Notes under the pieces: model-generated
The model's database searches: none
What the model saw: only the letters and a program-made list of their open reading frames with translations
What the model was told of the DNA's origin: nothing
In this document: in pieces, positions 212 to 38,215 of the stretch
Position numbering within the stretch: position 1 is the first letter of the stretch
Layout: each line of letters opens with the position of its first letter
Program-made: the position numbers and the translations under genes
Assembly: GCA_005888755.1 (NCBI GenBank)
Contig: VBBQ01000025.1
Span: 1 to 64,000, forward strand
Direction: 5' to 3'
Source: Candidatus Bathyarchaeota archaeon
GTDB taxonomy: Archaea; Thermoproteota; Bathyarchaeia; 40CM-2-53-6
DNA length: 64,000 nt

Positions 212-393
212 TGGTGCGGGGGGTGGGATTCGAACCCACGAAGGCCTACGCCACGGGATAGCACACCCGCGTTTTGCCAAGGGCATCAATCGTATCGATA
301 CCTTTGCCATATTGGGTCTTGAGTGTAGCGCGCGCGTGCTAGGCGCGACCCGCCCATTTGGTCAGATATTTGACCTGACTCTGGTACCCCCGC
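212..393 (-). tRNA. tRNA-Leu(CAA), split by three putative introns; exons complement(370..393, 349..357, 318..324, 212..259); CCA encoded
   Basis: Acceptor GCGGGGG/CCCCCGC, A73, T-arm GUGGGUUCGAAUCCCAC and V-arm GGC-GUAG-GCC. Removing 358..369, 325..348 and 260..317 gives an 88-nt type II tRNA with D-stem CCA:UGG, anticodon stem CGGGA:UCCCG and loop CUCAAGA. Confidence 0.8.
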
Positions 394-540
394 AGGAAAA
401 ATCCAACATCAGCCTTCTCAAATATGCCTTAGTGCGCGTCACATCGAGGGACCTTTGTAGCGTCCTGACCCTCTCGTTTCGAGCCCGCGGGAAAGATATT
501 ATTGGACGAATGCAATTCTCTTGCATTGCAGGGATCTTCC

Positions 541-19871: not shown

Positions 19872-20000
19872 GCCGGGATTCCTGAGCCTGGTACAGGGCA
19901 GTCCACGCCGAGAAGTGTGGGCCTAGGCCTGGAAAAATAGGCTCCTGTCAGCCTGTGGTCCTTGCGGGCCGCGTGGGTTCAAATCCCACTCCCGGCGCCA
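19872..20000 (+). tRNA. tRNA-Ser(GGA) with two putative introns; join(19872..19901,19927..19934,19950..20000); CCA encoded
   Basis: GCCGGGA/UCCCGGC acceptor, G73, T-arm GUGGGUUCAAAUCCCAC; spliced anticodon arm CAGGC-CUGGAAA-GCCUG is perfectly paired. Confidence 0.88.
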
Positions 20001-20735: not shown

Positions 20736-20850
20736 TGGTGCGGGAGGTGGGATTCGAACCCACGAACCCCTACGGGACAGGCGCCTCAGGCCTGCGCTTC
20801 CACGACCCTTGATCGAAAGGGTCTCTTTGACCTGGCTTGGCAACTCCCGC
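20736..20850 (-). tRNA. tRNA-Leu(GAG) with D-arm intron; complement(join(20736..20797,20825..20850)); CCA encoded
   Basis: GCGGGAG/CUCCCGC, A73, anticodon arm CAGGC-CUGAGGC-GCCUG, T-arm GUGGGUUCGAAUCCCAC; 27-nt insert with hairpin GACCCUU/AAGGGUC interrupts the D-stem. Confidence 0.9.
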
Positions 20851-34807: not shown

Positions 34808-37800
34808 GTGCAAGTTCTAGAGAACAGGCCCAACCAAACCTATCCGGAAAAGATCGAGGAAGAATACCATCGGCAATACAGAATCGCCTCAGAGGCCCGG
34901 TCGAAAGGACTTGACCCTTCGTGGAAGGTTGAATCACAAACAACCTATGATCTAGCTGAGCGTGTGGAGAAATCAGTCGGGCCAATCGGAGTCGCAACTC
35001 GAATCCGAGAATTGAGCAAACTAATCTCCCGTGAAGAGACAGCGCTGAAGATTAGCGAAGACATAGTTCTGGGCCACTTCGGAAGCCTTGAGCCTGAAGA
35101 CGCCGCCGAACAGGCAATTCGTACAGCGCTAGCGGTGTTGGACGAGGCCGTGACTGTGGCGCCAATTCAAGGAATCCACGACGTCAAGATCCGAACAAAC
35201 GTGGATGGATCGAAGCACCTAGCCGTCTACTTTGCAGGCCCAATGCGGGCGGCCGGTGGGACGGAGATGGGCTTGACCATGATCGTCGCCGACTACGTAC
35301 GTCGACAACTGAACATTCCACCTTATCATGCCTCAGAACAGGAAGCGATGAGATTCGTCGAAGAACTACGTTTGTACGAGCGATCTATCGCCCGTTTCCA
35401 GTATCGAAACCCCGATAGCGTGCTCAAAGACGCGATCATGCGTCTAACCGTCGAGCCAAACGGAGTGGAAACAGACCCCGTCGAGGTGACAGTCAACCGG
35501 AATCTGATGAGGATAGAGACCAACCGGGTCAGGGGCGGAACACTGCGAGTGGTAAATGATGGACTGCTAGGAAGATCAACCAAGGTTCTGAAGATTGTTG
35601 AGAAGCTTGGCTTGGAAGGCTGGGGATGGCTGGCTGTGATGAAGACCTCGTCATCAGAAGGAGAAGAAGCGAAGGAGTTCATGTTCATGGAGGATGTTGT
35701 CGGTGGCCGCCCAATCTTCGCTTTTCCTGGAGCGGCGGGGGGTTTCAGAATTCGATATGGCCGTTCGCGAAACACTGGAATGGCATCCGTTGGTGTTCAC
35801 CCGGCCACGATGGAGGTTCTAGGGGGCTTTCTGGCGATAGGGGTCCAGATGAGACTGGAAAGGCCGGGAAAGGCAGGCATCGTCAACGCAGTTGATAGTA
35901 TCGAGCCTCCTGTTGTGAAGCTCATCGATGGTTCAGTGATGAGGATAGATTCACCTCAAGAAGCAAAGGCGCTGCGGGACAAGATTCAGAAGATACTATT
36001 CCTCGGCGACCTAATGGTAGGATATGGGGAATTTCTTGAGAACAATCGGGCGCTGGTCCCGTCAGGGTTTGTCGAGTCGTGGTGGGCGCAGTTATTAGAA
36101 GAGAAGCTCTTGGAACAGGAAAATAGGAACAAAGCACAACAATTGCTGAATATTTCGGCAGAACGATTGCAGGACTTCGCTAAGAGCCCGTTCTCCGTTA
36201 GACCACGGGCGAGCGAAGCAATTGGACTATCTCAGACCCTCGGGATTCCTCTGCACCCGGCGTACATACACTTCTGGAGTCAGGTTACCGTTGAAGACAT
36301 ACACTATCTCCGCGAGAAACTAATCCACTACCTAGACGACTCCTGCGTTCTTCCGTATGATGAAAAGCTGAAGGACATTCTCGAACAGGCTCGAATGCCC
36401 CACAAGATGGTTGCCGGTGCAATCCAGCTCCTAGACGATGATGCCCTAGTTCTCCAAACGATTCTGAATCTCGGGGCCCCATCGACAACGGTCAAAGGAG
36501 AAAACTCGCTAGAAGCGTTGAGCATGCTAGCAGGATTCCCAATCAAGAACAAAGCGCCCATCTTTGTCGGGGCACGCATGGGACGCCCAGAGAAGGCGAA
36601 GGAAAGGATCATGACTCCAAGGGTCCACGGCCTATTTCCAACCGGCCAAGCAGGCGGCCCACGCCGTGATGTGATTGAAGCATCGAGGAAATCGGTCGTA
36701 ACCTTGGAACTAGTAGACCGAAATTGCTCGCAGTGTGGTCGGTGGGAATCGAAGCTCAGATGCCCAAGCTGCGGACACGAAACGCGGATGAGTGTAAACT
36801 GTTCAAAATGCGGCCAACCATCGCACGATTCCTCCTCCAATTGCAACGGATCGCTCGTCGCCTACCGGAGCGTCAACCTAAACCTAGTCGAAATGCTGGA
36901 AGAAGCAGTCAGGAGGCTCAAGCTGGGAAAAATGGAAGGATTGGTAAAAGGAGTGAAGGGTCTCATCAACAAGACGCGAATGCCCGAGCCCCTGGAGAAG
37001 GCGCTGCTACGTGCCAAATCAGATGTCTCCGTGTTCAAGGACGGAACCCTGCGGTTTGACGCATCAAACGCAGTCTTAACCCAGTTCAAACCCGGGGAAA
37101 TTGGGCTGAGCCTTGAGAAAGCCCACGAGATAGGTTACGCGAAGGACACGGACGGTTACGAACTCTCAGACTCGAAACAGTTGTGCGCTTTGGAGATACA
37201 AGACCTCGTTGTCTCGGAGGCTTGCGGCGAGTACCTGTTGAAGGTCTCCCGGTTCCTAGATGACCTCCTCAGCTCTTACTATGGAATGGACAAGCTCTAC
37301 AAGGCGTCGAAAAGAGAGGACCTCATCGGGCATCTGGTCGTCGGGCTATCACCTCATACATCCGTCGGCGCAGTGGGAAGAATTGTCGGATTCACCAAAG
37401 CAAGCGTCTGCTACGCCCACCCGCTATACCATGCTGCGAAACGGAGAGACTGCGACGGAGACGAAGACTCCGTGTCCCTTTTGCTCGATGTGCTGTTGAA
37501 CTTCTCCAGGGAATACCTTCCAGACAGGATTGGGGGGTTAATGGACGCCCCACTACTCCTCGCTCCACTCCTAAACGCGACCGAGGTGGCGCGGCAAGCA
37601 TTCAACATCGAAACAATCACCGCTTTCCCCATCGCTTTCTACGAAAAAACACTGGTCGGAGCGAACCCTAAGGAGATCGAGGATCTCGTCCCAACCCTCA
37701 ACAACGCCCGGGAGTCTTCGTCGGGCAACTGGAACATTGGATTTACCCATCCGACGGAAGATCTAGACCGAGCGCGGTTGACAAGCGCCTACAAGGAACT

Positions 37801-38215
37801 ACCGACGATGCTGGAGAAGGTCAAAGAGCAGCTCGACCTCGCGGACAAGATCGTGGCTGTGAAGGGAGAAGAGGTAGCGAGGAAGGTCCTTGGCACGCAT
37901 ATTCTACGAGACTTAGTAGGGAACTTGCGAACGTTCACGTCGCAGAGATCGCGATGCTCAAAGTGTAACTGGAAACCGCGTCGCGCACCATTGAAAGGAG
38001 TCTGCGTGAAGTGCGGAGGCAAGCTGGGACCCACCGTATTCAAAGCAGGGGTCGAGAAATACCTCCAAGTCGCCTTTGACATGGTCAAACGGTACAATGT
38101 CGGTGAATACTACCGTCAGAGACTCGACCTGATCAAAGTCGAACTGGACGAGACATTCAGACCGGCTGTGGAAGATAGGACGCAAACGAAGCTCTTGGTG
38201 GGAGATTTCGCTTAG
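34808..38215 (+). CDS. polC: DNA polymerase II (PolD) large subunit DP2
   Basis: 1135 aa; YFAGPMRAAGGTEMG, AKRRDCDGDEDSVSLLLD; Zn-finger CSQCGRWESKLRCPSC; GTG start; no intein insert seen. Confidence 0.97.
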   Translation: MQVLENRPNQTYPEKIEEEYHRQYRIASEARSKGLDPSWKVESQTTYDLAERVEKSVGPIGVATRIRELSKLISREETALKISEDIVLGHFGSLEPEDAAEQAIRTALAVLDEAVTVAPIQGIHDVKIRTNVDGSKHLAVYFAGPMRAAGGTEMGLTMIVADYVRRQLNIPPYHASEQEAMRFVEELRLYERSIARFQYRNPDSVLKDAIMRLTVEPNGVETDPVEVTVNRNLMRIETNRVRGGTLRVVNDGLLGRSTKVLKIVEKLGLEGWGWLAVMKTSSSEGEEAKEFMFMEDVVGGRPIFAFPGAAGGFRIRYGRSRNTGMASVGVHPATMEVLGGFLAIGVQMRLERPGKAGIVNAVDSIEPPVVKLIDGSVMRIDSPQEAKALRDKIQKILFLGDLMVGYGEFLENNRALVPSGFVESWWAQLLEEKLLEQENRNKAQQLLNISAERLQDFAKSPFSVRPRASEAIGLSQTLGIPLHPAYIHFWSQVTVEDIHYLREKLIHYLDDSCVLPYDEKLKDILEQARMPHKMVAGAIQLLDDDALVLQTILNLGAPSTTVKGENSLEALSMLAGFPIKNKAPIFVGARMGRPEKAKERIMTPRVHGLFPTGQAGGPRRDVIEASRKSVVTLELVDRNCSQCGRWESKLRCPSCGHETRMSVNCSKCGQPSHDSSSNCNGSLVAYRSVNLNLVEMLEEAVRRLKLGKMEGLVKGVKGLINKTRMPEPLEKALLRAKSDVSVFKDGTLRFDASNAVLTQFKPGEIGLSLEKAHEIGYAKDTDGYELSDSKQLCALEIQDLVVSEACGEYLLKVSRFLDDLLSSYYGMDKLYKASKREDLIGHLVVGLSPHTSVGAVGRIVGFTKASVCYAHPLYHAAKRRDCDGDEDSVSLLLDVLLNFSREYLPDRIGGLMDAPLLLAPLLNATEVARQAFNIETITAFPIAFYEKTLVGANPKEIEDLVPTLNNARESSSGNWNIGFTHPTEDLDRARLTSAYKELPTMLEKVKEQLDLADKIVAVKGEEVARKVLGTHILRDLVGNLRTFTSQRSRCSKCNWKPRRAPLKGVCVKCGGKLGPTVFKAGVEKYLQVAFDMVKRYNVGEYYRQRLDLIKVELDETFRPAVEDRTQTKLLVGDFA

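Follow-up and report, generated by a model that had tools for sequence, protein, structure and literature searches.

The window analysed here, a stretch of 64,000 nucleotides from contig VBBQ01000025.1 of Candidatus Bathyarchaeota archaeon, carries on its minus strand (393→212) a tRNA-Leu(CAA) gene whose 182-nt body is composed of four exons and three introns (Table 1). It is the only tRNA-Leu(CAA) gene detected in the genome and is very probably functional. A single 182-nt body would be transcribed from the minus strand, EndA would cut all three introns out of the precursor, and RtcB would then ligate the exons to an 88-nt tRNA-Leu(CAA), whose CCA is encoded. The ends of the body pair as a perfect 7-bp acceptor stem and a 5-bp T-arm. 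The original prediction had proposed the identity of this tRNA, its anticodon, the three introns and their junctions. Every coordinate of its segments, with their lengths and junctions, was reproduced exactly, and the comparison with relatives described below upheld the gene model. Exons 2 and 3 had been regarded as unusually short; however, their lengths of 9 and 7 nt are dictated by the spacing of the sites 21/22, 30/31 and 37/38. An AT-rich element (AUAUUU) at about window positions 421–426 of the minus strand, 28–33 nt upstream of the gene, is a possible archaeal TATA box.

Table 1: Segments of the tRNA-Leu(CAA) gene in the window, and the tRNA-Leu(UAA) gene of the same genome. Site and nucleotide numbers follow the usual tRNA numbering and are our own assignment on the cloverleaf. 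H, central helix; h', inner helix; ^, splice site.
Feature	Position	Strand	Location in the tRNA	Motif or conservation
Exon 1, 24 nt	370..393	(-)	nucleotides 1-21, acceptor 5' strand and most of D-arm	22/24 columns invariant, 18 family loci
Intron a, 12 nt	358..369	(-)	D-loop site 21/22	H GGUC:GACC; sites AA^A / AA^A; no inner helix
Exon 2, 9 nt, AUGGGCGGG	349..357	(-)	nucleotides 22-30	invariant, 18 loci
Intron b, 24 nt	325..348	(-)	anticodon-stem site 30/31	H GGCG:CGCU; h' CGCGC:GCGCG; sites GG^U / AC^A
Exon 3, 7 nt, ACUCAAG	318..324	(-)	nucleotides 31-37, anticodon CAA	identical in 33/33 loci
Intron c, 58 nt	260..317	(-)	canonical site 37/38	H CUCA:UGUG, one U-U mismatch; h' CCC:GGG; sites AG^A / CU^A
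Exon 4, 48 nt	212..259	(-)	nucleotide 38 to CCA: anticodon stem 3', long variable arm, T-arm, acceptor 3', CCA	48/48 columns invariant
tRNA-Leu(UAA)	G000:C35:8785-8943 (L115)		introns of 33, 25 and 17 nt at 15/16, 30/31 and 37/38	spliced form recognised

Without its introns, the gene reads as a standard tRNA. ARAGORN in its default mode identified the spliced 88-mer as tRNA-Leu(caa) of 88 bases, and among the eight possible splice states the fully spliced form was the only one called. When introns were allowed, ARAGORN made no call for any splice state that retained the D-loop intron, and on the native window it called no tRNA. The Rfam model RF00005 missed the locus in the window as well as in the whole genome. 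The expectation that the gene would defeat tRNA finders is thus confirmed for ARAGORN and Rfam, the two that were run, and annotation by either of them would list tRNA-Leu(CAA) as missing. Of the tRNA genes of the window, only tRNA-Leu(GAG) on the minus strand (20739–20850), whose D-arm region holds an insert of about 27 nt, was detected by Rfam. An apparent interrupted tRNA-Ser gene with the probable anticodon GGA (plus strand, 19872–19996, 125 nt to the acceptor end) was missed by both programs.

BLAST revealed the orthologous gene in 17 other genomes of the same family (f1), with 77–98% identity over its length. One splice rule, which places every cut behind the second bulge base, was applied to 19 loci from 18 genomes. 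It gave the same 88-nt RNA from 18 loci, and the product of the remaining one contained a single change, A9 to U. Column identity of the exons was 99–100% over 18 family loci, with no variable column in exons 2, 3 and 4. The mean identity of the f1 loci amounted to 0.66 for introns a and c, 0.94 for intron b, and 0.40 and 0.27 for the two flanks. With near-invariant exons next to diverged flanks and diverged introns a and c, the structure is not a product of chance, and the locus has the conservation of a real, essential-looking gene.

A census of the tRNA genes was performed with a T-arm pattern search and targeted retrieval around the matches, its exhaustiveness being limited by the pattern and by gaps in the assembly, which is a MAG of 2.0 Mb in 48 contigs and about 95% complete. 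It recovered all five Leu isoacceptors with one gene each, namely CAA in the window, UAA (contig C35), UAG (C13), CAG (C27) and GAG (C4). An intact second copy of tRNA-Leu(CAA), for which a check had been proposed together with the gene model, was not found by this pattern search in the approximately 95% complete MAG. The failure of ARAGORN and Rfam to recognise the gene in place could also be expected of a decayed pseudogene with accumulated insertions. Such an origin is extremely improbable, since 87 of the 88 exon positions are identical over 19 loci in species with dissimilar flanks, the CCA is encoded, and the four other Leu isoacceptors were found in the census, yet no other Leu(CAA).

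All three junction pairs had been described as BHBs. Each of them indeed lies in a BHB or in a relaxed variant of it, but the inner helix is absent from intron a, which hence is not a full BHB. It possesses the 4-bp central helix only; the 5' splice site falls within a hairpin loop of 8 nt and the 3' splice site within an asymmetric internal loop. This predicted pairing makes it a relaxed motif. Within family f1 its length ranges from 11 to 17 nt. The bases of the bulges vary freely on the intron side and are constant (AA and A) on the exon side, and GACC, or GACU with a G-U pair, faces GGUC at all 19 loci. The central helix thus retains four pairs in f1, and three to four in the outgroups; its changes are one-sided, none being compensatory. 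Other helix registers in the D-loop (UCAG:CUGA and GUCA:UGAC) were followed by hand on the alignment and led to products that differ between species and deviate from the D-loop consensus; they were therefore discarded.

The exact position of intron a is obscured in the window by a CAAAT direct repeat on both of its sides, which permits six junction placements with an identical product. Where relatives have a disrupted repeat, a single placement remains, GGUCAA^...^AUGG, and this settles the cut. The same repeat might be taken as the trace of a tandem D-loop duplication by which the intron was born in this lineage. This origin is unlikely, as most other members of the family have lost an intact repeat (CCAGAU, CCACAU, CCAUAU) and introns at the same site in other orders are devoid of it. 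The repeat looks recent and incidental.

The minimum-energy fold calculated for the window precursor favours a competing 7-bp D-loop hairpin, which would sequester part of the central helix; most relatives could form it with 5 bp. A possible hindrance of splicing by this hairpin is the main weakness of the model. Its stability and the missing inner helix would suit a tRNA that loses introns b and c but keeps the 12-nt segment in the mature molecule as an enlarged D-loop hairpin. However, the insert varies in sequence and between 11 and 17 nt in length while the flanking exon bases are fixed, and the hairpin is lost in two genomes (G018 and G020), while GGUC pairs with GACC or GACU at all 19 f1 loci. 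Moreover, eight genomes of families f3 and f6 contain introns b and c and wholly lack the insert; their uninterrupted D-loop GAGCCAGGUCAAAUGC is the predicted spliced loop (with single-base variants in three of them). In families f2, f4 and f5 the D-loop intron sits at 17/17a (L135, for instance, has H AGAG:CUCU and sites CC^A/AA^A), and its splicing likewise restores the same loop. Retention of the segment is therefore very unlikely. The D-loop CAGGUCAAA is common to the other Leu tRNAs of the genome.

Excision of intron a as a discrete element is also indicated by three genomes of the same class outside the order. In G052 and G055 an intron at 21/22, of 18 and 19 nt, respectively, is the sole intron, and G047 combines a 21/22 intron with one near 29/30. 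Removal of the introns gave a recognised Leu(CAA) in each case, and for G052 and G055 a perfect 88-nt one. Of all the evidence, the finding of a in the absence of b and c, and of b and c in the absence of a, argues most strongly for three discrete introns.

Introns b and c were compared across 33 loci from 32 genomes and six families. The central helix of intron b is fully paired (4/4) at all 33 loci. Its first pair is G-U at 22 loci, C-G at eight and G-C at three, and the C-G form co-occurs with a change of the D-stem from CCA:UGG to GCA:UGC, an exchange that is compensatory. Intron b has an inner helix of 5 bp and acquires an outer helix only after the other introns have been handled; by this predicted structure it is a relaxed motif. 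Intron c has the anticodon stem as outer helix and CCC:GGG as inner helix, and is canonical except for a U-U mismatch. This mismatch (UGUG), which leaves three pairs in the central helix, is fixed in family f1 and does not occur in the others; the helix is fully paired as UGGG or UGAG in families f2, f4 and f5 and at four of the seven f3 loci; a different single mismatch occurs at some f3 and f6 loci. Changes in the intron c helix are one-sided only. Intron c measures 54–61 nt in f1, whereas the order's other families have one of 16–24 nt.

The genome encodes two EndA proteins of 189 and 176 amino acids, the former on contig C46 and the latter on C32. The 189-aa protein is closest to the α subunit of Aeropyrum pernix (3p1z, 3ajv), has kept the Tyr, His and Lys triad, and contains a lysine (K42) that aligns with K44 of the crenarchaea-specific loop of A. 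pernix. The 176-aa protein is without the triad residues in the alignment, as expected for a putative structural subunit. RtcB is encoded as well. Efficient cutting of relaxed motifs has been reported only for α/β and ε-type EndAs, and the loop matters for it (PMC6379350, PMC12397907); at the level of genes, an EndA predicted to accept such motifs and the ligase are thus present. We infer that these proteins act on the Leu(CAA) precursor. The predicted enzyme is a heterotetramer built from a single type of catalytic subunit and a single type of structural subunit, and its crenarchaeal-type loop would permit the relaxed motifs. Intron b is probably removed before intron c, because its excision would assemble the anticodon stem and thereby give the canonical intron c motif its full outer helix.

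In order to place the host, the large subunit of DNA polymerase D (DP2, window 34808–38215) was compared with its relatives. It was 91–93% identical to proteins from soil MAGs, and the closest named relatives belong to soil Candidatus Bathyarchaeota and Crenarchaeota 13_1_40CM MAGs. DP2 thus assigns the host to the soil Bathyarchaeia and not to the order Thermoproteales. The Thermoproteales had been cited as precedent for multi-intron tRNA genes. Three introns per tRNA gene are known there, but for a member of the Bathyarchaeia this precedent is an analogy only. Pyrobaculum calidifontis tRNA-Glu(UUC) and P. islandicum tRNA-Pro(UGG) resemble the Leu(CAA) gene in having three BHB-type introns at canonical and non-canonical sites, and the Thermoproteales systems, as here, involve an α/β EndA (PMC4390854, PMC4090602, PMC4033280). 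The gene described here differs from them in its soil Bathyarchaeia host and in the site combination 21/22, 30/31 and 37/38.

The census yielded 31 tRNA genes with pairable acceptor ends, at least 28 of which exceed the mature length of their class; they are counted as interrupted by this length criterion, their splice sites not all having been worked out singly. The longest measures 202 nt (L083). A tRNA-Thr(UGU) gene (G000:C41:13790-13872, L001) has an apparent 11-nt intron in the anticodon loop, which equals the published lower size limit. The soil Asgard archaea Atabeyarchaeia and Freyarchaeia, which inhabit wetland soil, likewise have 92–95% of their tRNA genes interrupted, more than half of them by multiple introns (PMC11291895); the present genome represents a different lineage. 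In our literature search, whose coverage was incomplete and does not prove absence, no paper on tRNA introns of Bathyarchaeia was found.

Archaeal tRNA introns range from 11 to 129 nt with a median of 15 nt (PMC3218864), occur at many sites in the D-arm and elsewhere (PMC4090602), and number up to three per gene (PMC8450103, PMC4390854). The 12-nt D-loop intron, which the original prediction considered unusual, is ordinary within this size range. Its size, the number of three introns, the D-loop location and the short exons each stay within known bounds, and we do not claim site 21/22 as new. The Leu(CAA) gene adds a good example to a familiar class of archaeal genes and does not found a new one.

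Of greatest interest are the differing sites that the D-loop intron occupies in orthologous genes, and its minimal splice motif there. The tRNA-Leu(UAA) gene of the same genome resembles Leu(CAA) in its three introns, the shared sites 30/31 and 37/38 and a matching motif layout, and its spliced D-loop matches that of Leu(CAA) from nucleotide 13 to 22; it differs in its D-loop intron, which is located at 15/16, has 33 nt and forms H CCCG:CGGG. We tentatively consider it possible, though not the likelier case, that the D-loop of Bathyarchaeia leucine tRNAs is a recurrent insertion hotspot. It would be occupied at 21/22, at 17/17a or not at all in Leu(CAA) and at 15/16 in Leu(UAA), with the same loop always restored, and the 21/22 form would be cut from a minimal 4-bp helix without inner helix. 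The order's families branch as an unresolved fan in a DP2 tree built from 24 genomes, so that the direction of these changes is not readable. If the hotspot exists, one order would suffice to follow how an intron moves from site to site in the same gene.

The useful aspects of the Leu(CAA) gene are its host group, an architecture that defeats the search programs, and the variation of its D-loop site. As its three introns have independent phyletic patterns, it offers a compact set of natural cases in which intron gain, loss and relocation can be studied, and it also bears on the lower limit of size and structure of an EndA substrate. Heavily interrupted tRNA sets, which are best known from hyperthermophiles of the Thermoproteales and have lately been described in soil Asgard archaea, extend to soil Bathyarchaeia, for which a full intron census would be worthwhile.
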